DNA from: a virus
DNA: 64,000 bases
Virus record (IMG/VR): IMGVR_UViG_3300027754_005987
Location: 45,205 to 109,204 of that record
Reading direction: 5' to 3' (one strand)
The translations under genes were made by a program, and so were the position numbers. Numbering within the stretch: position 1 is the stretch's first letter; each line of letters starts with the position of its first letter. The notes beneath the pieces are model-generated. The model did not search any database. It was not told the DNA's origin and saw only the letters and a list, made by a program, of their open reading frames with translations. Positions 3,036 to 52,328 of this stretch are shown here, piece by piece.

Positions 3036-3445
3036 TGAAAGACCTTTTTTTAATATATGTTAATATGGTTGGTAAAGATTACAAAGGTAATCTTATATAT
3101 GAATTTATATTTTCAGACACAACCAAAAATATAGATGGTAATGAGTGGGATACATTCCCTGCTTCTGGGAGACCAGAAGCTCCTCATGACCATTTTATTA
3201 AAAAGGTTGGTAGATTAGAATCTGAACTTAATTTGGATGTTGTTCAAAATAGCGATACATTTGCTGTTTGGGATGCTGTTGATGGGGTTATAGCTTTAGC
3301 ATGGGAAAATATAAATGCTTATGATTCTTATCCAGAAAAAAGACTTTGTTTTAAATTTGGTGAACCAATAAAAGAAGTTGAAGCCAAATTATATGAGAAT
3401 GACATAATATTGAATTACAATACGAAACAAAATGAAAAAATCTAA
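3035..3445 (+). CDS. Hypothetical phage protein
   Basis: 136 residues, not recognised. The sequence alternates beta-like and polar segments and has conserved-looking aromatic positions (NEWDTFPASGR near residue 36, FAVWDAVDGVIALAWEN near 83). No signal peptide or membrane segment is seen. The ATG overlaps the stop of the upstream gene by one base and the 3' end overlaps the next gene by 14 bases, so it is in a tightly coupled operon with the genes before the terminase. Role unknown. Confidence 0.65.
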   Translation: MKDLFLIYVNMVGKDYKGNLIYEFIFSDTTKNIDGNEWDTFPASGRPEAPHDHFIKKVGRLESELNLDVVQNSDTFAVWDAVDGVIALAWENINAYDSYPEKRLCFKFGEPIKEVEAKLYENDIILNYNTKQNEKI

Positions 3446-4469
3446 TATAAACGAAGAAGATAAATCAAAATTTAGAATACATGTTGATGCTAAAACATTA
3501 AAAAACCCAACAATGACTAAAAAAATGGCTGATATTCAGAATGCAAATCCATATATTGAATTTGATATGGAGCCAACTAAAGATGGTAATATACCAACAA
3601 TGGAAGATTTGGCCGAAGATAATTCAGTTTTAGAACCAGAAGCACTTATAACGCCTCAAGATAAAACCACAATAAAATATCTTTCTAATGTAAAAGATAG
3701 TAAAACTGGTGAGATTTCACAACCATTTACTATTGGTGCTCAAAAATACCAAATGGTTAGAGGAACATGTGATAATCAAATTGTTATGGCTGTTTTTGCA
3801 CATGATGAAACTGATGAACTTGGTGAAAACATTATATATTCAATTGATGAATTTGAAAAAAATATTGCATTGCCAATGCTAGAAACTATGGGGTTAAGAG
3901 GTCAAGATATTGGTATGGTTGGAGATGAGCCAATGACAGACGTTAAGGATGACACGTACGAAGGTTATAAGCACTATCTAGTGAACAAAGAAACAAATGA
4001 AGTACGTAAGTTTAAAACAATAGAAGAAATGCTTTCTAGTGATAAATTAGACACTGAAGAATATATGGGTGTTGGTAAGTTTAAAAAACACATGAATGAA
4101 AAGTTATTTGGTTCTAAAAAAAGAAATATTGAACCATTAAACGAAGTTACACCTACTGGTGAAGAGAGCGATGAAGAAATGAACATCAAAGCTAAAAAAT
4201 TAATGGATATGATTGGTAAAAGAATACCAACTAACATAATAAAAACAATAACAACACCAGTAGCACAAAGAGAAGTAATTGCAGCATTTGCTGAACTTAT
4301 TGGTGTTCCTAGAAATGGTTTAAATAAATTAATTATGGGGTTAAAAGTTTTGGCAAAACAAGAAACAACTCCAGTAGCTGAATCTAAGGTAATGACCAAG
4401 AATGAATTAATGGAAAGTCTTAAAAAACATAAAATCATTAAAACAATCAAAATAAAAGATATTAAATAA
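3432..4469 (+). CDS. Hypothetical phage protein
   Basis: 345 residues with no motif I can name. The middle part (residues about 80-190) looks like an alpha/beta domain; the C-terminal 120 residues are Lys-rich and helical (ending KKHKIIKTIKIKDIK). It overlaps the preceding gene by 14 bases, and its stop overlaps the next ATG (TAATG). A long antisense frame at 3974-4450 is a codon shadow. Position between acidic head-region proteins and the terminase suggests a virion or assembly role, but this is inference only. Confidence 0.65.
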   Translation: MKKSNINEEDKSKFRIHVDAKTLKNPTMTKKMADIQNANPYIEFDMEPTKDGNIPTMEDLAEDNSVLEPEALITPQDKTTIKYLSNVKDSKTGEISQPFTIGAQKYQMVRGTCDNQIVMAVFAHDETDELGENIIYSIDEFEKNIALPMLETMGLRGQDIGMVGDEPMTDVKDDTYEGYKHYLVNKETNEVRKFKTIEEMLSSDKLDTEEYMGVGKFKKHMNEKLFGSKKRNIEPLNEVTPTGEESDEEMNIKAKKLMDMIGKRIPTNIIKTITTPVAQREVIAAFAELIGVPRNGLNKLIMGLKVLAKQETTPVAESKVMTKNELMESLKKHKIIKTIKIKDIK

Positions 4470-5740
4470 TGAAAGACTATAAAAAAATAGCTGAAGAAGC
4501 ATTAAAAAAATCTAAAGAAGGTAAAACAATAAAACGTTTAGTTGAAAGTGTTGTTTACCCAGATGGTTTAACTGAAAGAATGAATTCTAAACTAGAAGAA
4601 GATTTAGTTAAACAAAATACGTCTTTAGGTAAGCATCCAATATTTCCAGAAGGTGATGAGTCATCTTTTGAACAAAAAATAATGGGTGAAAGATTTAGCG
4701 AAGTTGCTAAACGTTATAAAAGAGCTTATGATGTTGATTTAATTGATAATTCTGAAGTTATGATGGGTATGTTACCATTACTTTCAGAAACGATGAAGTT
4801 AGAGTCTAATAAGAAAAAAGAATTGGAGAAATTAGCTATTGAAATGATTCGAGAAGAATATGATATGGGTGAAGATGTTGTTGAAATACATGCTGAATTA
4901 ACATCTAACATCAATATGGTTGGAACTAAAAAGAATCCAACGCCAGTTCCAGTTGTTATGGAATTCAAAAATCATGATGAAATGGTTAATGCTAATGAAG
5001 AAGTATACAAACGTAGATTCTTAAATGCAATGATGCAAGGTGCCGCTAAAAAATGCAATCACATGTTTCATATGGTTGATGATGAATTAACTGACATTGA
5101 CCCTCGTTTATCTAGTAGATATGCTAAGTTGATGGCATCTGCTGATTACATGTATTATATAATACCTGAAATGGAAGATGGTGTTACTGGTGGAATTGTT
5201 AGAGTAGAGTTTCCTACTAAAGATAACCCTAAAGCAATAATATATGTTCAAGCAATGGTTTTTCCAGTTCTTATTCATGAATTGGTTAAAGGAGTTATGG
5301 AATTATTATCAGCACATGGTTTACCTAAAAATAAAAAAATAGGTAATTTTGTAATTGATAAAGCAGATTATTTGGCTGCTGAACCATGGGACATGAGAAT
5401 TGGGCCTGCTTTATGGAGTAAATTCACAGATGCAATAGAACCAGATGATTTCAAATTAAAACACCACGTATATTCTGAACTAGCGGCTTTACCAGTTAGA
5501 GAATTTAATATTAAGATGAGAGAGATTATGGGTGGGACAAAAGAAGGTAAAAATATAGTTAAAAATATATTAGATGAAGTTAAAATAGGTTTAAAGGAAG
5601 AAGAGTTTAACGAATCAATTAATGAGTACAATGATATACCTGATGATGATGGTTTTAAGTTTGATGAACTTATGAATGGTGATGATTCTGGTAAAAATTT
5701 GGATGATGAAGACGGATGGGATATTGAAGATTTGTTTTAA
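4469..5740 (+). CDS. Hypothetical protein with capsid-targeting-like N-terminus
   Basis: 423 residues of unknown fold. The N-terminus MKDYKKIAEEALKK closely resembles the T4 internal-protein capsid-targeting signal (MKTYQEFIAE in IPI-IPIII, from memory), including the [IL]xE processing site IAE. The middle contains a mixed alpha/beta domain (residues about 215-340); the last 40 residues are very acidic (DDDGFKFDELMNGDD, DDEDGWDIEDLF). It is the last gene before a hairpin terminator. A packaged internal or core protein is a reasonable guess. The HELVKG stretch is not a zinc-protease motif because the second His is missing. Confidence 0.65.
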   Translation: MKDYKKIAEEALKKSKEGKTIKRLVESVVYPDGLTERMNSKLEEDLVKQNTSLGKHPIFPEGDESSFEQKIMGERFSEVAKRYKRAYDVDLIDNSEVMMGMLPLLSETMKLESNKKKELEKLAIEMIREEYDMGEDVVEIHAELTSNINMVGTKKNPTPVPVVMEFKNHDEMVNANEEVYKRRFLNAMMQGAAKKCNHMFHMVDDELTDIDPRLSSRYAKLMASADYMYYIIPEMEDGVTGGIVRVEFPTKDNPKAIIYVQAMVFPVLIHELVKGVMELLSAHGLPKNKKIGNFVIDKADYLAAEPWDMRIGPALWSKFTDAIEPDDFKLKHHVYSELAALPVREFNIKMREIMGGTKEGKNIVKNILDEVKIGLKEEEFNESINEYNDIPDDDGFKFDELMNGDDSGKNLDDEDGWDIEDLF

Positions 5741-5841: not shown

Positions 5842-8289
5842 ATGTTAACAACCAATGAAATATTCAAAGAGTATGCAAAATGTTTAACAAGTCCAGTTTA
5901 TGCAATTGAGGCTTATCTAGAGACATTTGATAAAACTCAAGAAGGGTTTGTTCCATTTAAGCTTTTTCCTAGACAAAAAGAAATTATTTACGCATACGAA
6001 AAACATAGATTTAATTTAATTACTAAACCTAGACAGGCTGGGGTATCAACAACAACAGCTGCATATATGTCAATAAAAGTTGGTTTTGCTGACGAACAAA
6101 ATCCAGAAGCTATTCTAATTATTGCGAATAAGCAAGAGTTAGCTTTTGAGTTTTTGGCTAAGATTAAAGATTTTTTATCACAATTACCTAGATGGGTTTG
6201 GGGTGATGAGTATTATGGTAATAGTAAGAATGAAAGTAAATCTATATTCTTAACAGACTCTAAAAAAGAAATTAAACTACCTAATGGTAGTCGTGTAAAA
6301 GCGGTAGCTACATCTAAAGATGCCTTGCGTGGATTTACCCCAACTTATCTTGTAATGGATGAGGCTGCCTATATTGATAATGGTGATGAAGTATTTGGTG
6401 CGGCCCTTACAGCTTTAGGTTGTTTAACTAAAGACTCATTGATATTAACCGAAAATGGTTTAGTTGAGTTAGATGAATTGGTTACTGAAAAAGATAAATT
6501 AGGGTTTACTGATTTAGAAACACCACATATGGTTTGTAATAAAGACGGTATTTTAACACCAGCAACCCAAACATTTGTAAGTGAGTATGGTGAAACTTTT
6601 AAAATAAAAACAAAATTAGGTATAGAGTTAGAGGGTAGTTGGAAACATCCATTATTAATTAATAGAAATGGTGAAGAAGTTTGGGTACGAATGAATGAAT
6701 TAGCTGTTGGTGATAAACCAATAATTAATTATGGTCAAAATTATTTTGGTGAAAATGATTACGTGATTAATGATAATGATTATATTTATACGTCAAACGA
6801 ATTATTAAAAGCAAAAAAAGAAATTTTAATTGATTATATTGGAAAATTATTTTTTGGTCGTGATTATTTTATTAACACAAATAAGAACACCTTAAGAAGG
6901 GTCCAATCTTTATTATTTAATATGGGTATTATATCAATAATAGATGGGGATATGTTAGTTAAAATAACCTTTACTCACGATTTTAATAATATAATTATTG
7001 ATGAGATAATTGAAATAACTAAGGGGGAAGATTATACGTATGATTTACACGTACCAGAAACTAATTCATTCATATCAAATGGTATAGTTAGCCATAATAC
7101 TGGGGGTAAAGCTACGCTAATATCAACTCCAAGGGGTATGGATGCGTTATATTACAAAACTTACGACCAAGCAAAGAGCAAAAAAAATAACTTCAATATC
7201 ATTGAAATGAAATGGTATGAGGATTTGCGTTATAATAAAGGCCTTAAATGGCTTAAAGGTGACCAAGTTTTTGAAGAATACGAATTTACCTTTGATTCAT
7301 ATAATAAAATGATTGATGATGGATGGAAACCAACATCATTTTGGTATGAGGAAATGTGTAGAGGTATGAACAATGATGCTAAAATGATAGCACAAGAGTT
7401 AGACGTTTCATTCATAGGTTCTGGTGGTAACGTTATTAGTGAAGAATATATTGATAATCAAAATAAGTTTAATGTAAAAGACCCAATAATGATGTTAGGG
7501 TCAGAACAAGAAACATGGATATGGGAAGAACCAAAAGAAGGTCATCAATACATACTCGGATGCGATGTATCTAGGGGTGATGGTGAGGATGCTTCTACTA
7601 TTGTTATTTTAGATTTCACTACTATGGAACAAGTTTTGGAATATCAAGGTAAAATACAACCAGATTTACTTGCGCAATTAGTTGAACAATATGGTGAAAT
7701 GTATAAAGCATATGCAGTAGTCGATATTACTGGTGGTATGGGTGTTTCTACAGTATTAAAACTACTTGAATTTGATTATAAGCGATTGCATTATGATTCT
7801 TTAGGTGGTAAAGTATTATCAACTAGACAAAGAGAAATGGTTTCTTATGGCAAAGGAGATAAAATACCTGGTTTTCAAGCAACAAATGTTCGTTTACCAA
7901 TGATTTCAAATTTGGAATATAGTATTAGAACAGATACTGTTAAAATACGTTCCAGACGACTTACATCGGAATTAAAGACATTTATATATAAAAATGGAAG
8001 ACCAGACCACATGGATGGTTATCATGACGATTTAATTATGTCTTTGGCAATGTGTTTATGGGTTTTGGAACATTCTTTTAAAAACCTAGAAAAGTTAGAA
8101 AAACAAACAAAAGCAATATTAAATAGCTGGGCTGTTGGTTCTAGTAATAGACCAACTATCACAACTACAGATAGCAACACAAAAAAAACAATAACAACGG
8201 TAAACCAAAAACACCCTGCATATAAAAATGTTCAAGACCCTACTGGTCAGTATGCGTGGTTATTTAGTGGTCAAAATAAAATGAAATAA
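5842..8289 (+). CDS. terL: Terminase large subunit (gp17-like) with intein
   Basis: DNA-packaging motor: ATPase plus headful nuclease that docks on the portal. The 815-residue precursor has a Walker A-type loop KPRQAGVST at residues 62-70, Walker B LVMDEAAY with D173/E174, and the coupling motif ISTPRG after the intein. The RNase H-like nuclease shows its acidic residues in GCDVSRGDG (D575), VVDITGG (D628) and YHDDLIM (D729/D730). Residues 194-419 are an intein inserted between TALG and TGGKATL; splicing would leave 589 residues, close to the usual gp17 size. The start follows an A-rich leader behind a TATTTATA box. A small unknown gene and then the portal follow, as in T4-like head modules, but no tail sheath or tube genes lie between them. 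Confidence 0.95.
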   Translation: MLTTNEIFKEYAKCLTSPVYAIEAYLETFDKTQEGFVPFKLFPRQKEIIYAYEKHRFNLITKPRQAGVSTTTAAYMSIKVGFADEQNPEAILIIANKQELAFEFLAKIKDFLSQLPRWVWGDEYYGNSKNESKSIFLTDSKKEIKLPNGSRVKAVATSKDALRGFTPTYLVMDEAAYIDNGDEVFGAALTALGCLTKDSLILTENGLVELDELVTEKDKLGFTDLETPHMVCNKDGILTPATQTFVSEYGETFKIKTKLGIELEGSWKHPLLINRNGEEVWVRMNELAVGDKPIINYGQNYFGENDYVINDNDYIYTSNELLKAKKEILIDYIGKLFFGRDYFINTNKNTLRRVQSLLFNMGIISIIDGDMLVKITFTHDFNNIIIDEIIEITKGEDYTYDLHVPETNSFISNGIVSHNTGGKATLISTPRGMDALYYKTYDQAKSKKNNFNIIEMKWYEDLRYNKGLKWLKGDQVFEEYEFTFDSYNKMIDDGWKPTSFWYEEMCRGMNNDAKMIAQELDVSFIGSGGNVISEEYIDNQNKFNVKDPIMMLGSEQETWIWEEPKEGHQYILGCDVSRGDGEDASTIVILDFTTMEQVLEYQGKIQPDLLAQLVEQYGEMYKAYAVVDITGGMGVSTVLKLLEFDYKRLHYDSLGGKVLSTRQREMVSYGKGDKIPGFQATNVRLPMISNLEYSIRTDTVKIRSRRLTSELKTFIYKNGRPDHMDGYHDDLIMSLAMCLWVLEHSFKNLEKLEKQTKAILNSWAVGSSNRPTITTTDSNTKKTITTVNQKHPAYKNVQDPTGQYAWLFSGQNKMK
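6421..7098 (+). mobile_element. Intein in terminase, endonuclease degenerate
   Basis: 226 residues. Block A is CLTKDSLILTENGLVELDEL with nucleophile Cys1; block B holds WKHP; block F is TYDLHVPETNSFISNG; block G is IVSHN, followed by Thr as the +1 residue. The central part keeps only fragments of a LAGLIDADG endonuclease (a segment ending RRVQSLLFNMGI) and no intact DOD acidic motif, so it should splice but probably no longer homes. Confidence 0.9.
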
Positions 8290-8290
8290 A

Positions 8291-8536
8291 ATGGGAATAA
8301 GTAAAAAAATTTTAATTCAAGCTAAACCTATTAACGATGTTGTATTTTTTTGGTCACCACCAAAAAACAATTTTGGACCAAATAAAAATATAAAAAAATA
8401 TGTAAAACCATATTTTTGTAACGCAACAAAATATTCTCAGGGTCAAGATTGGATAACAACATATGTATATGATAGAGTAATTGTTGATGGTGAGCAACAA
8501 CATTCGGCTTATGTTGAATGCGATTATGTTCAATAA
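8291..8536 (+). CDS. Small hypothetical protein
   Basis: 81 residues, Lys/Tyr/Asn-rich, with no recognised motif and no membrane segment. It starts one base after the terminase stop region (TAA-A-ATG), so it is translated from the terminase message. A new putative promoter for the portal gene follows its stop. Function unknown; a small packaging accessory factor is possible from position only. Confidence 0.6.
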   Translation: MGISKKILIQAKPINDVVFFWSPPKNNFGPNKNIKKYVKPYFCNATKYSQGQDWITTYVYDRVIVDGEQQHSAYVECDYVQ

Positions 8537-8581: not shown

Positions 8582-10627
8582 ATGGCAGATAATAAAAATC
8601 TAACAATATTTCAGAAACTAGGGCAAGTATTAAATCCTAGTAACGTTAAACAATCACAAACAACATCAACTCAACGTTATAATATAGGTAATGGTGAATT
8701 ACTTAAAACAGATAACAAAGCTGATTTTGAGAGAGCTAAACTACAGGCTCAACAAAATAAATATTTGGGTCAAGTATGGAAAAAGGTAGAGAGTGGATTG
8801 TTTCAACAATCAATTAATTATGAAACAACTCGTATTGGTTCTTATTCCGATTTTGAAGCTATGGAGTTTTATCCAACAATAGCAGCAGCATTAGATATTA
8901 TGATGGAAGAGTCTACAACGCTTAATCAGCATGGTAGAATGCTTAATGTTTATTCTGATAGTAATAGAGTTAAAACTATATTAGAAGATTTATTTTTTAA
9001 CAGGTTAGATTTACACACTTCATTACCAATGTTTACTAGAAACACTTGCAAATATGGTGATAATTTTGTTTATCTAAATATTGATGATAAAAATGGAATA
9101 ATTAGTGCTAAGCAATTACCTAATTACGAAATGGAAAGAAGAGAAACTGGATTATTTGATATGGTATCTGGAAGAGAAACACCAAATACATTGGAGAAAA
9201 GTTCATCAACAGATAAAGTTAAGTTTTTTTGGAGAGGTCGTGATGTTGAATTTAATTCATGGCAAATTGCTCACTTCCGTTTATTAGGTGATGATAGACG
9301 TTTACCTTACGGTACATCTGTTTTAGAGAAGTCTAGACGTGTTTGGAAACAATTAATACTATCTGAGGATTCAATGCTTGTTTATCGTGTGACTAGAGCA
9401 CCAGAAAGACGTGTATATAAAATCTATGTCGGTAACATTGATGATGCTGATGTTGAACAATACGTAAATACAATTGCTGACAGATTTAAAAGGATGCCAA
9501 TAACTGACCCACAAACTGGTCAAATGGACCTTAGATATAATCAATTATCTAATGACCAAGATTATTTCATACCAGTTCGTTCTGAAAATGCGCCAACACC
9601 AATTGATACATTGCCTGGAGCAACTAACTTGGACCAAATTGCTGATATAGAATACTTACAAAAGAATTTATTCACATCACTTAGAGTACCAAAACCATTT
9701 TTAGGTTTTGAAGAGGCTGCTGGTGATGGTAAAAATTTAGCTTTACAAGATATTCGTTTTTCTAGAACGATTAATAGAATACAACAATCTATGTTACAAG
9801 AACTTAATAAGATTGCTATTATTCATTTATATATCTTAGGGTTTGAAGAGGATTTAGATAATTTTACACTTACATTAAATAACCCATCAACTCAAGCTGA
9901 AATGCTTAAGGTTGAACATACTCAACTTAAAGTTACTTTATATAAAGATGCTGTATCTGATGCTGGAAATGGTTTTGGTACTATGTCTATGACAAGAGCA
10001 CATAGAGAGATTCTAGGATGGTCTGATGATGAAATTAAGAAAGATTTACTAGAACAAAGAATGGAGAAAGCAGCAGCTGCTGAATTAGCTAATTCTAGTG
10101 CAGTAATAAAACATACTGGTATGTTTGATGTTGTAGATAAAATATATGGCGATTATCAGAAAGCGCTTGAAGGTGGTGGAGCTGGTGAAGAAGGTGCTGG
10201 TGGAGAATCCTCTAGTTCTGGAGGTGGCGGTGGCGGCCTAGGTGGCTCATTCGGTGGCGGTGGAGTAAGTGGTGAAGATTTAGATTTTGGTGGTGAGACA
10301 GGTGCTGAAGAAGAAGGTGGTGCAACAGCTGAAGCAGGTGCAGAAGCAGGTGCAGCTGAAGTAGGTGCTGAAGCAGGTAGTACTGAAGGGTTAGCAGAAT
10401 CTATAATGAAAACTGAAAAATTATTGATAGAAAGAAAAGACGCAATATCTAAAAAATTGGATGCTAGAACAAAAAAATACCAAGGAAGATTTGTTACTCT
10501 TGTTGAGTCAATAAAACCAGATGAAAAAATAAAAGAAGAAAAAGTTAAAATTTACGATAAAAACATAAAAGTAAATCAAAATATCAATACAATGATTGAT
10601 GATATTAATAAAATGTTAGATGAATAG
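8582..10627 (+). CDS. Portal protein (gp20-like)
   Basis: Forms the dodecameric portal ring at the head vertex through which the terminase packs DNA. The 681-residue protein follows T4 gp20 from residue 90 to 500: YPTIAAALDIMMEE near 100, RNTCKYGDNFVY near 155, HFRLLGDDRRLPYG near 230, LPGATNLDQIADIEYL near 345, and RVPKPFLGFEEA near 370. An Ala/Gly/Glu-rich low-complexity insert at about 530-600 (with runs of six Gly) separates this core from a helical Lys-rich C-terminus, making it longer than gp20 (524 residues in T4). It lies downstream of terL and upstream of the protease-scaffold-capsid block. Confidence 0.93.
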   Translation: MADNKNLTIFQKLGQVLNPSNVKQSQTTSTQRYNIGNGELLKTDNKADFERAKLQAQQNKYLGQVWKKVESGLFQQSINYETTRIGSYSDFEAMEFYPTIAAALDIMMEESTTLNQHGRMLNVYSDSNRVKTILEDLFFNRLDLHTSLPMFTRNTCKYGDNFVYLNIDDKNGIISAKQLPNYEMERRETGLFDMVSGRETPNTLEKSSSTDKVKFFWRGRDVEFNSWQIAHFRLLGDDRRLPYGTSVLEKSRRVWKQLILSEDSMLVYRVTRAPERRVYKIYVGNIDDADVEQYVNTIADRFKRMPITDPQTGQMDLRYNQLSNDQDYFIPVRSENAPTPIDTLPGATNLDQIADIEYLQKNLFTSLRVPKPFLGFEEAAGDGKNLALQDIRFSRTINRIQQSMLQELNKIAIIHLYILGFEEDLDNFTLTLNNPSTQAEMLKVEHTQLKVTLYKDAVSDAGNGFGTMSMTRAHREILGWSDDEIKKDLLEQRMEKAAAAELANSSAVIKHTGMFDVVDKIYGDYQKALEGGGAGEEGAGGESSSSGGGGGGLGGSFGGGGVSGEDLDFGGETGAEEEGGATAEAGAEAGAAEVGAEAGSTEGLAESIMKTEKLLIERKDAISKKLDARTKKYQGRFVTLVESIKPDEKIKEEKVKIYDKNIKVNQNINTMIDDINKMLDE

Positions 10628-10672: not shown

Positions 10673-11464
10673 ATGAAGAATTTTGGTAAACTAAAAAACG
10701 TATTTAATGATTTAATTTCTGAGGGTATAGCAACTAAAGACGCTAAATCTATTGAGTTATTTAAAAAATACGTTAAGACAGTAAAAGAAAGTGAAATATT
10801 AAAAACTCAATTTTTAGTAGTATCAAATATAGAAAATAAAATTGAGTCTAATAGAGAGAAAGCAACTCAATTTGTTAAAGAAAATATTGATTTATTTTCA
10901 AAATTTGATAAGAAAAAAATGATTGAGTTAAATGAAAATTTATCTAGTTTTATCACATCATCTAATAAAGGTGATTTATTAAAAGAAGATATTGATTATA
11001 ACCATAAAAATTTACATCAAAATATCTCTACACTTATATTCACAAAAAAAACACCAAACAATATAGATACGATTGTAGATGCAACTACTGAAGTTGTTGA
11101 TTATATTTTAAACAACAAAACTAAAGAGATTGTAGAAGCATATGAGTTACCATCTAGTTTATTGGCTAATATAATGGTTGATAAATATAATGAAAGATAT
11201 GCTGATTTGGATGAATCTGAAAAAAGAATACTTAAAGTTCTTATTGAATCAACAGATGAAGAAAAAAAAGAATTATATTCATTAACAATAAGAGAGTGTA
11301 TTGATTTGATAAATGAAAAACTATCTGATTCAGATTTAGAAGTAAAAGATAAACTTTTGCGAGTTAAAGATAAATTATTAAATGACAAGCAAAGTGTTAT
11401 TGAAGATTTTAATAAAAATATATCTAAATTAATTGAACTGAAAGATAATTTAAAAAATAGTTAA
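10673..11464 (+). CDS. Helical head-module protein with capsid-targeting-like N-terminus
   Basis: 263 residues, predicted almost fully helical and Lys/Glu-rich, with no named domain. It lies between portal and prohead protease, where T4 has the small core proteins gp67 and gp68. The start MKNFGKLKNVFNDLISEG has the MK-aromatic opening and an ISE site matching the prohead-protease rule [LI]xE. I therefore infer a prohead core or internal protein. It shows no similarity by eye to gp67/68 sequences, so this rests on position and composition. Confidence 0.6.
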   Translation: MKNFGKLKNVFNDLISEGIATKDAKSIELFKKYVKTVKESEILKTQFLVVSNIENKIESNREKATQFVKENIDLFSKFDKKKMIELNENLSSFITSSNKGDLLKEDIDYNHKNLHQNISTLIFTKKTPNNIDTIVDATTEVVDYILNNKTKEIVEAYELPSSLLANIMVDKYNERYADLDESEKRILKVLIESTDEEKKELYSLTIRECIDLINEKLSDSDLEVKDKLLRVKDKLLNDKQSVIEDFNKNISKLIELKDNLKNS

Positions 11465-12571: not shown

Positions 12572-12599
12572 AAACCATAAACACTAGTGTTTATGGTTT
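12572..12599 (+). terminator. Perfect 28-bp palindromic terminator
   Basis: AAACCATAAACAC and its exact complement meet at TA, followed by a T-rich tract (TTTTTTTATTTT). It separates the upstream head genes from the protease-scaffold-capsid unit. A GTG within it opens the protease frame in an ORF search but is not a credible start. Confidence 0.85.
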
Positions 12600-12615
12600 T
12601 TTTATTTTATACACA

Positions 12616-12623
12616 TATTTATT
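12616..12623 (+). promoter_or_regulatory. Putative late promoter box TATTTATT
   Basis: ACATATTTATTATATAAA starts 25 bases before the protease ATG at 12641 and directly follows a terminator. It has one mismatch to TATTTATA. Confidence 0.45.
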
Positions 12624-12640
12624 ATATAAACGCAAACTAT

Positions 12641-13363
12641 ATGCATAATTATAACGAATTAAAAGTATTGAAACGTCATGAAACAGGGACTGGTGTTTTA
12701 ATCGAACATGATGCTGGATTTATTAGTCCTGATGAACCTAGGAATCAACCTTTTATCAATGAGATAAAAAAATTAGATACAGGTAGCAAAATGACTATTG
12801 TTGAACCGCTTATTGTATACGTTGTATTACAGAAGTATGGTATCCTTAACCGTAATGGTAGGGTTTATCCAGAAAGCATATTAAAACAACAAGATAGGTT
12901 ATATCAACAAGCAATCAAAGAAAGAAGAGCCGTAGGTGAATTAGACCATCCAGAATCTAGTGTTATTGCTGGTGATAGAATATCACACAATATAGTTGAG
13001 ACATGGTGGGAAGGTCATACACTTATGGGCAAAATGGAGATACTAATGACACCTGGATATATTAATTATGGTATTGTATCAACAAAAGGAGATGAAGTCG
13101 CTAATCTATTAAGAAACAGAATTAAAATAGGTGTATCATCTAGAGGTGTTGGTTCGCTTAAAGAAGGTAAAAATGGTGAACAAATAGTACAAGACGATTT
13201 TGAGATAATATGTTGGGATGTTGTAACAGCACCTTCAACACCAGATGCATGGATTGGTAGGAGTTCTGAAGAAATTAGACCGTATGTAGAAAACGTACAA
13301 AAGAAAAAACCATTAATTGAAGGTGGGTTAAATGATAAATTAGATAAATTTTTATTAGATTAA
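12641..13363 (+). CDS. Prohead core protease (gp21-like)
   Basis: Serine protease of the prohead core; in T4 it degrades the scaffold and trims head proteins at [LI]xE sites before packaging. The 240-residue product has the family landmarks: NGRVYP near 72, GELDHPE with candidate catalytic His103, and GVSSRGVGSL with candidate Ser166/167, then DDFEIICWDVVTAPSTPDA. The frame is open back to a GTG at 12587, but that lies inside the terminator hairpin, so I place the start at the first ATG after the TATTTATT box. It is followed by the acidic scaffold and the capsid gene, the T4 order 21-22-23. Confidence 0.88.
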   Translation: MHNYNELKVLKRHETGTGVLIEHDAGFISPDEPRNQPFINEIKKLDTGSKMTIVEPLIVYVVLQKYGILNRNGRVYPESILKQQDRLYQQAIKERRAVGELDHPESSVIAGDRISHNIVETWWEGHTLMGKMEILMTPGYINYGIVSTKGDEVANLLRNRIKIGVSSRGVGSLKEGKNGEQIVQDDFEIICWDVVTAPSTPDAWIGRSSEEIRPYVENVQKKKPLIEGGLNDKLDKFLLD

Positions 13364-13451
13364 TAAGAATTATAGATATTTTTTTACTTTAATTTGGTTT
13401 TTTGTTAAAATCACACATATTTATTAACAAATGAGGGGTTTACCCTATTGT

Positions 13452-13459
13452 TATTTATA
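13452..13459 (+). promoter_or_regulatory. Putative late promoter box TATTTATA before scaffold/capsid
   Basis: Exact TATTTATA beginning 44 bases before the ATG at 13496; the spacing 44 recurs at two minus-strand units (20500 and 24169). A second, one-mismatch copy (TATTTATT) is at about 13416. Confidence 0.5.
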
Positions 13460-13495
13460 TATAATATATAAAATTTAAAAAAAATAAAAAAAGAA

Positions 13496-14725
13496 ATGGC
13501 TGAAAAAAAATCAATACTTGAAGAAGCGTTATTGGATATTAAAAACATTCAATCTGCTTTAAATGCCAACACAAAAGAAATACTTCGTAGCGTTGCTAAA
13601 GAAGAAATTGATAGTGTGGTGAAAGAATCGCTTATGAAAAATGAAGCTGATTATGAAGAAGAGGATTTGGAATCAACTGATGATGCTGTAGAATTAGGCG
13701 GTGACGCTGATATCAATACAATGGAATTAGGTGACGAAGAATCTGACGATGCAGAATTAGATGATATCGAAGGCTCCGAAGAAGTGGCTCCAGAAATGGA
13801 TTCAAAAATTGGAATGGACTCAGATGAGTTAGGTGGAGTGTATGATATGACTAAAGGAGCATCAGATGATGAAGTTTTCGCAATTTACAAAAAATTAAGC
13901 GGTGAAGACGAAATCGAAATTGTTGGTGATGAAATTCACTTAAACATTACCGAACCAGGAGAGTACATTGTTAAAAAAGGTGCTTTGGGTGATTCAATGG
14001 AAGCTGAAGAAGAACTTGATTTAGAAGATTCTGAAGAAGAATCTGAAGAAGAGGGAGAAGCTGAAGAAGAAATGAATTACGAAATTGAAATGGGTAATGA
14101 AGAAGAAGCTGAAGAAGAAGAAGCTGAAGAGGAAGAAGCTGAAGAAGAAGAATCTGAAGAAGAGGAAGAAGAGGAGTTAGAAGAGAATTTAGGCGCTACT
14201 AGAGGTCATGCTGGTAGACAAGGTGCTAAAAGGTCTGGTTCTGCTCATATTCCAAAACCTAAAAAAGCTTTGGAAGAATCACAAAAAGCTAGACAAATTG
14301 TTTCTGAAACAACCAAAAAATATAATACATTATTAACTGAAGCTAAAAAATTACAGACTGAGAATGAAGAATTCAGAAAAGCTCTTAAAACTTTTAGAAA
14401 TCAGTTAGTAGAAACAGTAGTATTCAATAGTAATCTTACTTATGTAACTAGATTATTCATGGAACATTCAACAACTAAAGCTGAAAAACAAAACATTATT
14501 AAACGTTTTGATGTTGAAGTATCAAATTTAGTTGAATCAAAAAAACTTTACAAAACTATTGCTAACGAATTGGAATCTAGAAAACCAATTGCTGAGTCTG
14601 TAAATAACAAAATAATTAAAGAAGCGGCTACTAGTACTTCAAAACAATTAAACGAAAGTACTGCGTATGTTGACCCATCTACTAAAAGAATCTTAGATTT
14701 AATTAACAGAGTAGAGAAAAAATAA
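13496..14725 (+). CDS. Acidic prohead core/scaffold protein (gp22-like by position)
   Basis: 409 residues. The N-terminal part is helical (SILEEALLDIKNIQSAL); residues about 175-235 form an extreme Glu/Ala tract of repeated EEAEEEE units; the C-terminal 150 residues form a long coiled coil (ALEESQKARQIVSETTKK onward) ending in Arg/Lys. It lies between the prohead protease and the capsid gene exactly where T4 encodes scaffold gp22, and it holds many [LI]xE sites. Sequence identity to gp22 is not visible by eye, so the call rests on position, coiled coil and charge. The acidic tract has trinucleotide (GAA) repeats that may vary in length. Confidence 0.75.
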   Translation: MAEKKSILEEALLDIKNIQSALNANTKEILRSVAKEEIDSVVKESLMKNEADYEEEDLESTDDAVELGGDADINTMELGDEESDDAELDDIEGSEEVAPEMDSKIGMDSDELGGVYDMTKGASDDEVFAIYKKLSGEDEIEIVGDEIHLNITEPGEYIVKKGALGDSMEAEEELDLEDSEEESEEEGEAEEEMNYEIEMGNEEEAEEEEAEEEEAEEEESEEEEEEELEENLGATRGHAGRQGAKRSGSAHIPKPKKALEESQKARQIVSETTKKYNTLLTEAKKLQTENEEFRKALKTFRNQLVETVVFNSNLTYVTRLFMEHSTTKAEKQNIIKRFDVEVSNLVESKKLYKTIANELESRKPIAESVNNKIIKEAATSTSKQLNESTAYVDPSTKRILDLINRVEKK

Positions 14726-14783
14726 CAATAACAATAACAAAAAAAAAAAAAAAAATAAAAAAAACAAAAAAAAAAAACAAATT
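14726..14783 (+). promoter_or_regulatory. 58-base G-free poly(A)-like leader of the capsid gene
   Basis: The whole gap between scaffold stop and capsid ATG contains no G and consists of A with a few C and T, including runs of 17 A (14739-14755) and 12 A (14766-14777). Bacteroidota ribosomes do not rely on Shine-Dalgarno pairing and favour A-rich unstructured leaders, so this is probably a translation enhancer for the most abundant virion protein. Confidence 0.6.
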
Positions 14784-16622
14784 ATGTCACATTTATTAAC
14801 ATCTGGACAAGTTGGAAATATTGGTTTAAACCATATGAAAGCTATCCGTAAAGAAACACAATCTAAATGGGATTCTTTAGGCTTCTTAGAAGGTCTTAGA
14901 GGTCACGTAAAAGAAAACATCGCTCAATTATATGAAAACCAAGCGTCTACATTATTAAGCGAGTCTACAACAGCTACTAACTCTGGTTCTTTTGAAACAG
15001 TTGTTTTCCCTATCGTAAGACGTGTTTTCTCTAAATTATTAGCTAACGACATCGTGTCTGTACAAGCTATGAACATGCCAATTGGTAAATTATTCTTTTT
15101 CGTACCACAAACTTCTAGCCGTGTTGACGGTGCTGGTGTTGCTGGTAGTGATTATACCTCTACAGCATCTTCTGATGTTTATGGTACTACTTACTCTGCA
15201 CACACTTCATTTGCATCTAACGGAATTCCTTCATGTGTATTGCCAGCTGCTGGAACATGTGTTGTAACACCTTTCGAAGCTAAAAACTTGTACGATATTT
15301 TCTACAATGATGGTTTATTTGATAACTCTAAAGGTACTTTAACTATCCGTACTCACGCTAGCTTACCTAAATTAACTTTTAATTCTAATGGTGATTTTAG
15401 TAACCCTGTAGTTGGTACTGGTACTTTGCCTACTGCTACTGATGGTTCATTAAGAGAAATCATCGTTAACGTTTCTGGTTTTTCACCAAACAACACAAAC
15501 AAACAAGTAATGACAGGTGCTGATGGTAACCAAATGGATACTGAATCTTTCTTAGCTTCTTTACAAATTGTTACTACTGCTAACATTTTAGACAGAGACG
15601 CTAACGTAGTTGTTGCTTCAAACAAATCTGTACCTTTTAGAGTTGTTACTCAAAAATATGGTAGAGGAATTGTTGATTATAATTCTATAACTGATGCTAC
15701 AGGTACTATTTATTTAGCTTTAGACTTGACTCACCCAGTTGGAACAACTGCTACTGGTACTGCTGCTGCTGGTACTGCTACTTATGATGGTTATGTTGGT
15801 GCTTCTGCTACAACTGCATCTGCATTTACTTTTAACGCTGCATGGGCTGAATATGCTACATTAGAGCTTGAAACCGAAATGGGAGAAGTATCTTTCAAAT
15901 TAGACGAAGTTGTTGTTGCTGTTGAAGAAAGAAAATTAAGAGCTACTTGGTCTCCAGAGCTTGCTCAAGACGTTAGTGCTTTCCACAACATCGATGCTGA
16001 AGCTGAATTAACAGCTATGTTATCTGAACAAGTTGCTGCTGAGATTGACCGTGAAATCCTTAGAGATTTGCGTAAAGCTGCTGCATGGCAATTGAGATGG
16101 GATTACAATGGTTGGAGAAAAGCTTCTACCGCTGCAAGTCCATATACTCAAAAAGAATGGAATCAAACTTTGATTACTCGTGTTAATCAAGTATCTGCTC
16201 AAATACATAAATCTACTCTTAGAGGTGGTGCTAACTTTATCGTTGTATCTTCTGAAATCTCTGCTATTTTTGATGATTTAGAATATTTCCACGTAAGTGA
16301 TGCTAACCCAGAGCAAGACCAATACAACATGGGTATTGAAAGAATTGGAACTTTAAGTGGTCGTTACCAAGTGTATCGTGACCCTTATGCACCAGCTTAC
16401 TCAGTAGTTATTGGACATAAAGGAAAATCATTATTGGATACTGGTTATATCTACGCACCATACGTGCCGTTACAATTAACCCCAACAATGTACAATCCAT
16501 TTAACTTTGCTCCAGTTAAAGGTATCATGACACGTTACGCTAAAAAAGTTGTGAACAATAGGTTCTATGGCCATGTAAGAGTGGACGGTGTACCTACATT
16601 CAATGTTAACGAATTACGTTAA
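14784..16622 (+). CDS. Major capsid protein (gp23-like)
   Basis: HK97-fold shell protein. The 612-residue sequence shows the gp23-type layout: a helical N-terminal delta region (residues 1-60), then FETVVFPIVRRVFSKLLAND and VSVQAMNMPIGKLFFFVPQTS near 72-111, a Gly/Ser/Thr-rich variable insert around 120-370, then EMGEVSFKLDEVVVAVEERKLRA, SPELAQDVSAFHNIDAEAEL, and a C-terminal block ending VKGIMTRYAKKVVNNRFYG. LLSE at 57-60 (and LYE at 49-51) fits the [LI]xE prohead-protease rule and predicts trimming after about E60. It is longer than T4 gp23 (521 residues). Codon use is richer in C-ending codons than its neighbours, fitting high expression. A strong terminator follows. Confidence 0.92.
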   Translation: MSHLLTSGQVGNIGLNHMKAIRKETQSKWDSLGFLEGLRGHVKENIAQLYENQASTLLSESTTATNSGSFETVVFPIVRRVFSKLLANDIVSVQAMNMPIGKLFFFVPQTSSRVDGAGVAGSDYTSTASSDVYGTTYSAHTSFASNGIPSCVLPAAGTCVVTPFEAKNLYDIFYNDGLFDNSKGTLTIRTHASLPKLTFNSNGDFSNPVVGTGTLPTATDGSLREIIVNVSGFSPNNTNKQVMTGADGNQMDTESFLASLQIVTTANILDRDANVVVASNKSVPFRVVTQKYGRGIVDYNSITDATGTIYLALDLTHPVGTTATGTAAAGTATYDGYVGASATTASAFTFNAAWAEYATLELETEMGEVSFKLDEVVVAVEERKLRATWSPELAQDVSAFHNIDAEAELTAMLSEQVAAEIDREILRDLRKAAAWQLRWDYNGWRKASTAASPYTQKEWNQTLITRVNQVSAQIHKSTLRGGANFIVVSSEISAIFDDLEYFHVSDANPEQDQYNMGIERIGTLSGRYQVYRDPYAPAYSVVIGHKGKSLLDTGYIYAPYVPLQLTPTMYNPFNFAPVKGIMTRYAKKVVNNRFYGHVRVDGVPTFNVNELR

Positions 16623-16642
16623 TCGTAACTAAAATAAAACTT

Positions 16643-16670
16643 AAAAGGTGGATAATATTATCCACCTTTT
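16643..16670 (+). terminator. Strong palindromic terminator after capsid gene
   Basis: AAAAGGTGGATAAT and its perfect complement (28 bases), followed by TTGTTTT, 20 bases after the capsid stop. Confidence 0.88.
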
Positions 16671-16683
16671 TTGTTTTAAATAC

Positions 16684-16714
16684 TTGACTTTATTAACGAT
16701 TATTAGTATATTTG
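16684..16714 (+). promoter_or_regulatory. Host-type (Bacteroidota) promoter TTG-N20-TATATTTG
   Basis: TTG at 16684-16686 and TATATTTG at 16707-16714, 20 bases apart, match the Bacteroidota primary-sigma consensus (TTG / TAnnTTTG). The expected start point is at or next to the ATG at 16719, so the message would be nearly leaderless. Confidence 0.8.
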
Positions 16715-16718
16715 TATT

Positions 16719-17408
16719 ATGAGTAGGAAAATAGAATTAACCCAAGAACAATTAGCTGAGTGTCTTAAAATGTATAATGAAGAATTACTTGGTTCAACTA
16801 CCATTAGTGAAAAGATGGGAATACATAAAACAATAATTATTAGAACACTTAAAGAAAATGGTGTTGAATTGGGACCGTCTGGACGAAGAAATATTGGTGG
16901 TAAATCAGTTGCACAAAAAAAATATGAATTAAAACCAGAAGTAAAAGCTAAACGAAGTGAATACCATAAAGATTGGTCAGCTGATAATCGTGAAACCTTA
17001 CGAAAGTATCATGGAACTTGGAGAGAAGATAATAAAGAACATGTAAATAAATATAAGCGTGATTATGAACGTAAAAGACGTGCTGAGGACCCAAAGTATA
17101 GATTAGGTGTTAGAACTCGCACAGCGGTATGGCAATTACTTAAAGAGCGTAACATCAACAAGACCAATAAAACATTTGAATTACTTGGATATACATTGGA
17201 AGAGCTAATGGTTCATTTAGAGAAACAATTCACCGAAGGTATGACATGGGATAATTATGGTGAATGGCATGTTGACCATAAGATACCGATGGCCAGTTTT
17301 AATTTCGAAACAACAGATGATAGAGAATTTAAACTATGTTGGTGTTTGGCTAATCTTCAGCCTCTGTGGGGACCAGATAATTTAATCAAGGGAACAAAAC
17401 TTTTATGA
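16719..17408 (+). CDS. HNH homing endonuclease
   Basis: 229 residues. Residues 1-50 look like a helix-turn-helix module (LLGSTTISEKMGIHKTIIIRTL); a basic helical linker rich in Lys/Arg follows; the HNH nuclease is at about 180-226 with WHVDHKIPMASF (catalytic His of the HNH) and CWCLANLQPLWGPDNLIKG (Asn/second metal ligand). This is the common free-standing phage homing type. It sits directly behind the capsid gene and its terminator with its own host-type promoter, as expected of a mobile gene inserted between essential genes. Its stop overlaps the upstream possible start of the next frame (ATGA at 17405). Confidence 0.88.
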   Translation: MSRKIELTQEQLAECLKMYNEELLGSTTISEKMGIHKTIIIRTLKENGVELGPSGRRNIGGKSVAQKKYELKPEVKAKRSEYHKDWSADNRETLRKYHGTWREDNKEHVNKYKRDYERKRRAEDPKYRLGVRTRTAVWQLLKERNINKTNKTFELLGYTLEELMVHLEKQFTEGMTWDNYGEWHVDHKIPMASFNFETTDDREFKLCWCLANLQPLWGPDNLIKGTKLL

Positions 17409-17428
17409 GTTCTGGGATATTTATTAGT

Positions 17429-17977
17429 ATGAAAGAGTTTATTAAAAAGTTATTAAGGGAAGGTTTAATTGATGATTTTGATTTTGAAGTTGAGAATCAT
17501 GGTAAAGTTATTCATAGTGAAATTAAAGTTAAAGATATTGAATTATCGTTATATAGGGGACTTAGAAATCAATTTGATAATACTAAAGCACATCCAGAGT
17601 TAGTTCCATATGGTAATGATTATATGTTAGTTGCTTCAAAATTTCCCGATAAATTGATATGGTTTACTAACGATATTGAATTTGCAAAAAAATATGATGG
17701 TTATGCGTTAATAATATATAAGTTACCAGTTAAAAAACATGAAAAAATAGTGACTTATGAAGATGGTTATACAACAACAGATTATATAGATAATAATGAT
17801 ATTATGATTTCTGGGTATGGTAATACACAGATAAAACAAGACCCTTATAATAATAATAGTTTTTATGCTGGTATTGAATTACCAGAGCATTGGTATTGGT
17901 CTTATAAAGTAGAAAAGCATATTGTTTGTGATAAGGATTTAATCATACCATGGAAAAACATTAAGTATAATGATTAA
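17429..17977 (+). CDS. Possible ADP-ribosyltransferase-like protein with capsid-targeting-like N-terminus
   Basis: 182 residues from the ATG at 17429. The frame also opens at 17405 (MSSGIFIS...), overlapping the endonuclease stop; I prefer 17429 because it gives MKEFIKKLLREGL, which matches MKNFIREKLREQ of the gene at 19048 and ends in an LRE site like T4 capsid-targeting signals. The body shows LYRGL near residue 48, WFTNDIEFAKKY near 85 and a following strand YALIIYKLP, an arrangement reminiscent of ADP-ribosyltransferases (Arg motif, then S/T motif); the final Glu motif is not certain. If right, it parallels T4 Alt, a packaged and injected ART. The fold call is weak. Its stop shares TTAA with the convergent gene. 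Confidence 0.6.
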   Translation: MKEFIKKLLREGLIDDFDFEVENHGKVIHSEIKVKDIELSLYRGLRNQFDNTKAHPELVPYGNDYMLVASKFPDKLIWFTNDIEFAKKYDGYALIIYKLPVKKHEKIVTYEDGYTTTDYIDNNDIMISGYGNTQIKQDPYNNNSFYAGIELPEHWYWSYKVEKHIVCDKDLIIPWKNIKYND

Positions 17978-18709: not shown

Positions 18710-19048
18710 TTATTGAAATTCTGGTCCTTGTTCACAAATTGTTGATTGTATTTGCGTCCAATAAGTATCGGCTTCATCTGGCATACTATCACCAGACATA
18801 TAACCTGTTTTTACTTGACCGTCAATTTTAATTTGTTCTTGTTTAAGATTTTCCAAAGGCGCATGTATTTTTTGCATAATTCTAGTTCTAGTTGCTTCAT
18901 CAATACCTTTCATAGCTTCCTCAACATAATGCAATGCTTCCGAATAAGAATTAATAGTCATTTTGTTACAAATAGTTTGAGTAGCTTTATTCATATTCTG
19001 ACCATCAATCATTTGTTCTCTAAGTTTTTCCCTAATAAAGTTTTTCAT
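18710..19048 (-). CDS. Small protein with capsid-targeting-like N-terminus
   Basis: 112 residues, helical, unknown family. It begins MKNFIREKLREQMIDG, very like the start of the protein at 17429 and carrying two overlapping [IL]xE sites (IRE and LRE), so I infer a prohead-targeted internal protein. The rest (residues 20-112) contains TICNKM and a conserved-looking C-terminus DTYWTQIQSTICEQGPEF with two Cys. The ATG follows the upstream structural gene by one base and a terminator follows the stop, making it the last gene of the unit 20456-18710. Confidence 0.65.
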   Translation of the reverse strand: MKNFIREKLREQMIDGQNMNKATQTICNKMTINSYSEALHYVEEAMKGIDEATRTRIMQKIHAPLENLKQEQIKIDGQVKTGYMSGDSMPDEADTYWTQIQSTICEQGPEFQ

Positions 19049-20456: not shown

Positions 20457-20492
20457 ATTTATTAATTATTTTAAACTTATTATTCATATACA

Positions 20493-20500
20493 TATAAATA
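20493..20500 (-). promoter_or_regulatory. Putative late promoter box TATTTATA
   Basis: Exact box on the minus strand, beginning 44 bases before the ATG at 20456, the same spacing as at 13452 and 24169. Confidence 0.5.
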
Positions 20501-20542
20501 TCTTTAATTTTATAATTAAATACTTTATTGTATTTATAAAAA

Positions 20543-20568
20543 GATAAAATAACCGATATTAGTTTATC
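20543..20568 (-). terminator. Possible terminator overlapping the hub gene stop
   Basis: On the minus strand GATAAACTAA pairs with TTATTTTATC (one mismatch) around TATCGG and is followed by TTTTTATAAA. The arm overlaps the stop codon at 20559. Stem is AT-rich, so moderate support. Confidence 0.45.
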
Positions 20569-28824: not shown

Positions 28825-28836
28825 AAATACTTTTAT

Positions 28837-28844
28837 TATAAATA
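28837..28844 (-). promoter_or_regulatory. Putative late promoter box TATTTATA
   Basis: Exact TATTTATA on the minus strand beginning 20 bases before the PhoH-like ATG. Confidence 0.5.
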
Positions 28845-28864
28845 TCGCATTTAATGCTTAAGGT

Positions 28865-31409: not shown

Positions 31410-31410
31410 A

Positions 31411-32756: not shown

Positions 32757-32834
32757 TTTAATATTTTAAACTTCAATTTTGTTTTTTGTTATCATTTTAA
32801 TTGTATTTTATTATTGTTATTGCATATTAACTAT

Positions 32835-35665: not shown

Positions 35666-35673
35666 ATTTTTTT

Positions 35674-37180: not shown

Positions 37181-37185
37181 ATTAT

Positions 37186-50551: not shown

Positions 50552-51004
50552 TTATTTTTTTATTTCTTTATTAGGTTTATATTGTGCTATTATACGTTTG
50601 AAGGTGTTAACAACCGTTTTTGGTAAAAAGTTACCTTTTTTATCACCATTTGGGTTATAATTATCAACTGGTTCATAAATAGTCATTTTTGTTGGATACC
50701 AACCTTCAATTCTATCTATTCTGAATATTTTAGTTGCTGCGTTAGTATTCCCTTTTTTAGATGCACCACTAATTTGTTGTGCCCTAATTGCATAATTACC
50801 GTTAAATAATTGACCATACACTGTTGGCAAAATATATCTTTTGCTTGGTGGCTGGTTTGGGAAATCCCTATATAATATATTAACGGCTTTTCTATTCATT
50901 ATTGCATATATTAAATCATCAGCAGAAACATCTTCAGTTATTAAACCTAGATGTTTCTGTGATTCTTCAAATATAACCTCTTCGAATAAATTGTAAAGCT
51001 TCAT
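50552..51004 (-). CDS. WYL-like protein with capsid-targeting-like N-terminus
   Basis: 150 residues. N-terminal MKLYNLFEEVIFEESQ has the MK-x-Tyr opening and two [LI]xE sites (LFE, IFE). From residue about 28 the pattern DLIYAIMNRKAVNILYRD, then RYILPTVYGQLFNGNYAIRA and ATKIFRIDRIEGW, resembles a single WYL domain, a nucleic-acid- or ligand-binding module. Both readings are from pattern and need a profile search. If correct, this is a packaged regulator-like protein delivered with the DNA. Starts 11 bases after the upstream stop. Confidence 0.6.
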   Translation of the reverse strand: MKLYNLFEEVIFEESQKHLGLITEDVSADDLIYAIMNRKAVNILYRDFPNQPPSKRYILPTVYGQLFNGNYAIRAQQISGASKKGNTNAATKIFRIDRIEGWYPTKMTIYEPVDNYNPNGDKKGNFLPKTVVNTFKRIIAQYKPNKEIKK

Positions 51005-51845: not shown

Positions 51846-52328
51846 TTAAATGTTTTTATTCTTTTTAGGATTATTTTTTTTACTAATAATCGCTTTGGAT
51901 AATTCTTCTAGTTGTGCATCGGTTAATTCAACATCATTAATAGTGTTAATCAATTTAGCAACTTTTGGATTGTAATTTTTTTCAGTTACATCTGAATCTT
52001 TGCTTTTTTTAACAAGGTCTTCAATTATTTCTTCAACAGTTTGTTTTTTAACAATATTACTTTCACCTAAGTTTGTAGTTGAACTACCACCAGCACGTCT
52101 ACCACCAAAACTATAAACAGCAAACCATGGAATATTTTGTCTATAACGACCAAATACTATATCCGTAGTTGTTGATTTTCCTTTTTTATAGTTAGAATCA
52201 TCATTATATGGTTTTTCAACTGGACCTGTTTCTATTTCACTATTATTGCTAATGGTTCTATCATTACCACCAGAAAAAATATCCCCACCAACCAATTCAG
52301 TTAAATCTTTCTTTTTAAATGTAGCCAT
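51846..52328 (-). CDS. Hypothetical protein heading the small-gene unit
   Basis: 160 residues. MATFKKKDLTELVGGDIFSG at the start, a polar middle with FGRYRQNIPWFAVYSFGGRRAG near 60-80, and a helical C-terminus (DAQLEELSKAIISKKNNPKK). Not recognised. It starts 22 bases after a minus-strand TATTTATA box, divergent from the tail fibre gene whose own box is only a few bases away. First of five genes running to 49939. Confidence 0.6.
   Translation of the reverse strand: MATFKKKDLTELVGGDIFSGGNDRTISNNSEIETGPVEKPYNDDSNYKKGKSTTTDIVFGRYRQNIPWFAVYSFGGRRAGGSSTTNLGESNIVKKQTVEEIIEDLVKKSKDSDVTEKNYNPKVAKLINTINDVELTDAQLEELSKAIISKKNNPKKNKNI

Follow-up and report, generated by a model that had tools for sequence, protein, structure and literature searches.

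The internal proteins of bacteriophage T4 carry propeptides of 10–19 residues that target them to the core and that the protease gp21 cuts at L/I-X-E; residues 4 and 7 serve targeting and residues 8 and 10 processing, and Alt, a head-packaged ADP-ribosyltransferase, is ejected into the host (all as given in part of PMC9026906). In the T4 sequences, IPII and IPIII begin MKTYQEFIAE↓A (↓, cut site), and IPI begins MKTFKEF, followed by a linker and ITE↓A. Here we describe shared N-termini of this kind on five proteins, A to E, of the virus record IMGVR_UViG_3300027754_005987 from IMG/VR. The window, a stretch of 64,000 nucleotides, spans bases 45205–109204 of this 109,204-base record and carries a T4-type head cluster; positions are those of the window unless given as record coordinates. 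We put a probability of roughly 0.82 on these N-termini being capsid-targeting propeptides cut by gp21, and we infer binding, cleavage, retention and injection from sequence and from the T4 analogy.

Protein A: 4469..5740, plus strand, 423 residues; leader residues 1–26 (4469–4546), predicted cut LVE26↓S.
Protein B: 10673..11464, plus strand, 263 residues; leader residues 1–17 (10673–10723), predicted cut ISE17↓G.
Protein C: 17429..17977, plus strand, 182 residues from 17429 (190 from the ATG at 17405); leader MKEFIKKLLRE (17429–17461).
Protein D: 18710..19048, minus strand, 112 residues; leader residues 1–11 (19048–19016), predicted cut LRE11↓Q.
Protein E: 50552..51004, minus strand, 150 residues; leader residues 1–24 (51004–50933), predicted cut ITE24↓D.

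In the mechanism we propose, a short, mostly helical leader with an aromatic residue at position 4 and hydrophobic residues after it would bind the prohead core, and the protein would be built into the head. A gp21-type protease would cut after the Glu of [LI]-x-E, and the freed protein would stay in the head and likely be delivered with the DNA. The leaders appear to fall into several coexisting types: MKxFI[KR]xLLRE↓ on swappable cargo, MKLYN[LI][FY]...[LI]xE↓ on E, xxNFGxI.....[LIV]xE↓ on B and xxYKKIAEEAL...[LI]xE↓[SG] on A. We favor propeptides because one leader occurs on unrelated proteins, [LI]xE is conserved amid variable surroundings, the capsid protein carries the same motif and the same phage encodes gp21.

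As a first-pass annotation had pointed out, all five proteins open with MK-x-[FY] and hold [LI]xE within 17 residues. Its five members stand, but the set was drawn too narrowly, since 11 genes fit, six of them left of the window. Genes were called by a greedy longest open reading frame (ORF) procedure, mostly from the first ATG, so starts can be wrong; the start of protein C was set by hand to 17429 before the ortholog screen and permutation. Across the whole record, all nine called genes starting MKx[FYW] have [LI]xE within 17 residues. These include four of the five named proteins, C being absent because it was called from 17405. With R also permitted at position 2, the motif is present in 10 of 11 genes. 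The background rate is 18% of internal 17-mers, and 33/246 for internal 17-mers of the form.K.[FYW]. When the first 20 residues were permuted by column, with the 17429 start, the 11 observed genes compared with a mean of 1.1, and none of 2000 permutations reached them.

A tighter leader, M[KR]x[FY][IL][KR]xx[LI][RKHN]E, fits 5 of 126 genes: C, D and those at record coordinates 7875–8462, 12848–14959 and 16456–17442. Column permutation gave a mean of 0.002 and never five in 2000, a number that is descriptive because these proteins themselves supplied the pattern; the database scans below are the independent test. Mutual blastp of the five bodies at E 1e-3 gave no match. Position 4 is aromatic in A–E, and position 7 is hydrophobic in A, B and E and polar in C and D. 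The predicted propeptides are 17 residues long in B and 11 in C and D; those of A (26) and E (24) are longer than the T4 range.

We examined conservation of the sites in ortholog families for 64 of the 126 genes, those with at least four distinct homologs, using a maximum of 40 homologs each. Family A retains [LI]xE↓[SGTA] in 41/41 aligned rows (its own sequence and 40 homologs), at residues 21–32, in a layout of a conserved YKKIAEEAL helix, a variable linker and then the site. In the AlphaFold model of protein A (mean predicted local distance difference test, pLDDT, 78.9) a helix spans residues 2–16, and pLDDT falls below 50 at 18–20. The first-pass annotation had placed cleavage at IAE9; the site that relatives keep is LVE26. 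The motif at residues 7–9 is also common (39/41), but it is usually followed by E, N, K or D and, in protein A, sits within the modelled helix. The fold has no PDB match at E < 0.001 and one BFVD match at that threshold, to an uncharacterised phage protein.

Family E combines a MKLYN[LI][FY] leader, a variable linker and [LI]xE in 6/6 rows. Cleavage of E had been proposed at LFE8; relatives keep LITE24 (6/6), and both of these earlier sites were probably misplaced. The broader proposal of a capsid-packaged set is partly supported: the shared leader, the conserved [LI]xE, the capsid motif and gp21 strongly favor probable gp21-type propeptides, with two of its five cleavage sites given up. A profile search found 18 further places of family E, 16 of them new distinct members; the uncounted two are L402, identical to L401, and L388, whose N-terminus equals that of a known row. 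The KLY leader is present in all 16, of which L396 and L398 start with a codon other than ATG, and in 14 a variable linker sets [LI]xE apart from the leader; L396 and L400 have it only at the end of the leader. The profile includes the leader, so the leader's presence in strong matches is partly by construction, and the site past the gap-rich linker is the better test.

In the 40 rows of family B, hydrophobic-x-E occurs in 37 (L or I in 31), LxD in two and neither in one. The profiles of B and E gave no convincing PDB relative. Family D has [LI]xE in 22/22 aligned rows, with E at residues 7–17 and x mostly R, also N, S or T; D is present in 22 of 106 fetched loci. As a separate observation, D is fused behind a domain that resembles ParB/sulfiredoxin by eye at G025:207708–208448 and G011:38508–39230, and these copies retain an internal LxE site (LSE↓QMIDG and LNE↓EMIDG).

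The start of protein C is uncertain: the first ATG of its ORF, 17405, overlaps the upstream stop by 4 bases. Its leader is common to unrelated proteins. The homologs of C are identical copies in viral contigs, leaving no diverged relatives for site conservation, and C has no match in the phage collection. Its single-sequence AlphaFold model has a mean pLDDT of 39. An LYRG motif raised the idea that C is an ADP-ribosyltransferase (ART), which we rejected for lack of a Pfam, PHROG or PDB sequence match; the same assignment for gene 7875 of this record failed with no Pfam, PHROG or other match at E 0.001. The bodies of A–E have no PHROG match (E 0.001) and no Pfam match over the curated cut-off, and a direct comparison with IPI–III was not run.

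Screened across the 64 families, a conserved [LI]xE whose x varies by at least 1 bit falls within residues 3–45 in 10, some of which are not known as head proteins. Controls over the same residues gave two families for [LI]xD, zero to five for other P1 residues and four for Ex[LI]; [LI]xE itself dropped to three families at residues 46–90 and two at 91–150. The capsid protein has LLxE or LITE near residue 60 in 26/26 rows. T4 gp23 has LTE↓A at residue 65, which we take to be its cleavage position. The predicted capsid site and two further candidates are:

Predicted cut of the gp23-type capsid protein, LLSE60↓S: Glu codon 14961..14963, plus strand; from motif conservation.
160-residue protein: 51846..52328, minus strand; further candidate site LTE11↓LVGGD.
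345-residue protein: 3432..4469, plus strand; short Lys-rich start, candidate site INE8↓E.

The 160-residue protein has [LI]xE in 6/6 rows (x = T, Q, T, N, D, E). The site of the 345-residue protein, a weaker case, is kept in 22/27. We also observed a 113-residue protein at record coordinates 25805–26146 that starts K[LI]IITE and has homologs in G004, G008, G011, G016, G021 and G025; its second [LI]xE, at residue 21, is conserved in 7/7 with variable x, and the sequences suggest possibly another processed family.

To look beyond this record, we scanned the leader pattern ATGAARNNNTTYATHARRNNNNTNNTNMGNGAR across the IMG/VR collection (2.9 million contigs). The 73 matches lie in 68 stretches, and 69 open ORFs of at least 40 residues that fall into 24 clusters; the other four ORFs are shorter. 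Clustering was single-linkage with the first 12 residues removed, and one 16-member cluster merges several cargo types. At least one cluster (L200, holin-like by eye) is probably a chance match. A stricter form (YTN YTN) was matched 58 times within these stretches, and every match opens an ORF of at least 50 residues (43 distinct). Bacterial and archaeal genomes (257 Gb) yielded eight matches to the same form, two of them in ORFs of more than 50 residues and one of those internal. Among the 24 cluster representatives positions 3 and 7 are free, position 8 is L or I in 23, position 9 is L in 22, S, N, G or E follows the Glu in 21, and Leu stands at position 13, unforced by the pattern, in 16. 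Codons differ at fixed leader residues (three for Ile5; TTA, CTT and CTA for Leu9), and such synonymous change indicates conservation at the protein level and not of the DNA alone. Among the open-licence PMC papers listed by our searches on capsid targeting of internal proteins, cyanophages, marine phages, polyvalent proteins and prohead protease, none describes this leader in its title or in the opening of its abstract.

The proteins behind the leader are diverse. Six of ten relatives' leader proteins scanned score over the Pfam cut-off, as NUDIX, ART-PolyVal, GNAT, PolyA_pol, SprT-like and GP88. ART-PolyVal (PF18760) matches L225 at 64.4 bits against a cut-off of 31.2 (E 2.5e-17), and L229 is a shorter relative; none was found among the proteins of this record that were scanned, which are not all of its proteins. 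The SprT-like cargo (Pfam E 1.4e-11) lies in a record that also holds the gp21-type protease (S77), and the Nudix cluster is tied to an S77-bearing record via L216, the E value of 2e-13 belonging to another member. Within our record, 12848 has DUF4116 repeats (E 2.1e-27), 19445 has a nucleotidyltransferase match barely over the cut-off, and 16456 and 30476 have HExxH motifs by eye; 30476 also matches Tox-MPTase2 and M91 below threshold.

Two observations concern domain arrangement. A Zn-ribbon module (CxxCxWxWK...VCHxC) lies between two [LI]xE sites in homologs (L014, G004, G021, G025) of record 36060–36497 and also behind the leader in Nudix proteins (L201, L209, L226), which gives it the look of an exchangeable module flanked by candidate cleavage sites. 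The nucleotidyltransferase and a second domain share one ORF at record 19445–21070; at G011:76926–78560 they are two adjacent genes, each with its own leader.

The head genes of the window are as follows.

gp17 terminase large subunit: 5842..8289, plus strand; phrog_2, E 3.8e-41.
gp20 portal: 8582..10627, plus strand; phrog_213, E 5.2e-58.
gp21-type prohead protease (S77): 12587..13363, plus strand; Pfam PF03420, E 1.7e-24; phrog_207, E 2.1e-38.
Candidate gp22-like scaffold: 13496..14725, plus strand; from position and acidic composition only.
gp23-type major capsid protein: 14784..16622, plus strand; Pfam PF07068, E 4.1e-73.

The Pfam match bears out the gp21-like protease that had been noticed in this phage. 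The order is gp17, gp20, protein B, three small ORFs, the gp21-type protease, gp22-like and gp23, compared with gp20-67-68-21-22-23 in T4; protein B, between gp20 and gp21, holds the place of T4 gp67/gp68. The candidate scaffold has no PHROG or Pfam match, and has [LI]xE near residue 9 in 24/27 aligned rows. The best named-phage matches to the capsid protein are Flavobacterium phage immuto (38% identity) and Microcystis phage Mel-JY01 (42.5%), over 50–58% of the protein, and megablast of window positions 1–25000 against the annotated phage collection gave zero matches. From the likeness to immuto we would guess a Bacteroidota host; phages of Bacteroidetes with a similar head cluster are described in part of PMC9723584. 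Ribosomal S21, the bS21 clade marker, was found in none of 24 records examined. Elsewhere, a long run of minus-strand genes at 28000–45500 resembles glycosyltransferases and sugar-modifying enzymes, judged from sequence starts.

Protease and leader were not always found together. Of the 28 leader-bearing records of at least 50 kb, 16 have S77 and 18 have gp23. G037 has gp23, cut by the contig end, without S77; in G032, also without S77, the gp23 match is a 52-position piece in a 202-residue frame and probably not a capsid gene. The S77-less records have no PF03237 terminase; a search with our own gp17 gave one weak match among them, and family E occurs in two of the 12. They may be fragments or other phages. 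By cluster, 11 of the 24 have a member in an S77 record (ART, SprT-like, Nudix, DUF4116 and the HExxH protein 16456 among them), six are seen only in records without S77, and seven have no S77 member and at least one untested member. As a side observation, gp21 matches in G006, G015, G017 and G020 are split near residue 123 within open frames of 622–647 residues, resembling an intein-like insert in the prohead protease.

A number of results weigh against propeptides. Matches to S77 are absent from 12, and to gp23 from 10, of those 28 records; GNAT, PolyA_pol and GP88 cargo was seen only in records without S77, and gp21 may be missing in some of these phages. With three of six Pfam-named cargo types confined to S77-less records, our confidence in the propeptide interpretation is lowered. 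Enrichment of the loose motif in six relatives was uneven: permutations reached the observed count in 0/2000 for G011, 9/2000 for G025 and, borderline, 104/2000 for G004, and G021, G016 and G008 showed no enrichment by permutation. Immuto, a nearest named relative, lacks an MKxF leader, and proteomics for our phage or immuto was not found in the part of PMC7077304 consulted. The [LI]xxE motif likewise peaks near N-termini (seven families). At residues 60–150, [LI]xE is conserved in five families and [LI]xG and [LI]xK in eight each; with [LI]xE not commoner there, its excess is N-terminal. Finally, MKxFIKK is not diagnostic by itself. A scan with MKxFIKK(h)(h) gave at least 81 matches in 80 stretches; among the matches listed, 44 open no ORF of 50 residues and 37 open ORFs of at least 50 residues. 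Of the 36 distinct ORFs among these, 10 have E at position 11, 18 have Gly at position 10 and two are signal-peptide-like.

Two side observations touch on these prefixes and on immuto. Most Gly-10 ORFs come from a separate phage family with MKxFIKKxFGI starts (L265–L335, many viral contigs), in which 9 of 34 rows compared have a PWV...NKDN body. In immuto (MW353175, 117631–118931), two adjacent proteins upstream of the terminase gene share a different leader, NFxLxxFLxENKLTxN...LLKE or ILKE, which suggests that Immutovirus has an independent tag of its own.

Could the leader be unrelated to the capsid? An amphipathic helix that binds membranes, or a localisation tag used in infection, with the Glu simply part of the helix, would suit a leader that is short, basic and amphipathic by eye, and would suit the lack of gp21 in the 12 of 28 records above. 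We think it improbable: it leaves unexplained why [LI] and E do not change although x and the spacing to Met1 do, and why the same motif recurs at the capsid-protein site and in T4. Far less credible is a mobile regulatory or recombination element acting at the DNA level at start codons. The leaders of 7875, 16456 and 12848 in our record have most codons in common, which suggests recent leader copying; across clusters, though, codons vary at fixed residues and upstream sequences differ, and D, E, A and B keep the protein motif despite length changes. Equally remote is chance likeness in an AT-rich genome with frequent MK starts and Glu-rich helices. Although 30 of 126 genes start MK and three relatives lack enrichment, permutation, database specificity and ortholog conservation oppose it; chance is unlikely for the whole set and still possible for single members.

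Within the propeptide reading, the fate of A and B deserves separate consideration. We regard them as probably core or standard head components more than optional injected cargo, because they lie in the terminase-portal-protease cluster and are present in many relatives (A in 81 and B in 50 of the 106 fetched loci; A served to fetch 80 of these loci, which biases its figure, and many loci are too short to reach B). In the strict form of this view, A and B would be essential head-core proteins like gp67, gp68 and gp22, processed by gp21 and not delivered, and only the MKxFIKxLLRE proteins would be cargo. The position of B favors it, but the body of A is well folded in the model and conserved, unlike a degraded core peptide, and its fold matches nothing characterised; we give the strict form a little under an even chance. 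It is compatible with capsid-targeting propeptides in the case of C, and C and the tagged enzymes are the better candidates for injection.

A wider proposal, which we hold tentatively and at slightly worse than even odds, is that a large T4-like clade reaching jumbo size loads the head, by means of the swappable MKxFI[KR]xLLRE↓, with at least two dozen unrelated proteins, of which many are enzymes, and that its gp21 acts as a polyprotein protease that frees modules. Some cargo would then be fused behind or between further [LI]xE sites, as could hold for the Zn-ribbon module, D behind the ParB-like domain, and the nucleotidyltransferase with its second domain. If true, the capsid would serve to deliver effectors, and sequence would suffice to read its cargo. 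A phage's injected proteins are normally unknown before virion analysis, and a readable tag would give cargo lists for uncultured phages. ADP-ribosyltransferases, Nudix hydrolases, acetyltransferases and putative metalloproteases would become candidate factors for host takeover or counter-defence in the first minutes, and capsid targeting as known from T4 would reach a group that has no close kin in the annotated phage collection. The second leader family would provide a means to ask what the prohead core recognises.

To our knowledge, the head genes of phiKZ, 201phi2-1 and SPN3US are not of the T4 gp23 type. In these phages many head proteins lose a propeptide by cleavage after Glu, and the phiKZ motif is S/A-X-E, in contrast to [LI]xE here (part of PMC9026906). 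Polyvalent proteins, whose ART, GNAT and peptidase domains are predicted to be injected from heads (part of PMC5512222), differ from the mostly short proteins described here, which have a common N-terminal tag and a candidate protease site. In common with T4 Alt, the set includes an ART domain, which in L225 (L229 being its shorter relative) follows a leader that has an LRE site, in records with S77; the domain here is of the ART-PolyVal family, not Alt. Several features set our proteins apart from the T4 internal proteins: the leader MKxFI[KR]xLLRE is not that of T4, C and D have a polar residue at position 7, cargo families are more numerous, the bodies show no Pfam or PHROG kinship to the T4 proteins, and S, N, G, E or Q often follows the Glu. 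Like IPI–III, however, these proteins have an MK-x-aromatic start, a leader of 10–26 residues ending in [LI]xE, an S77 protease and unrelated bodies under one leader. Proteins E and A show the leader, linker and [LI]xE layout of IPI, and E matches K2, Y4 and F7 of the T4 MKTYQEF start.

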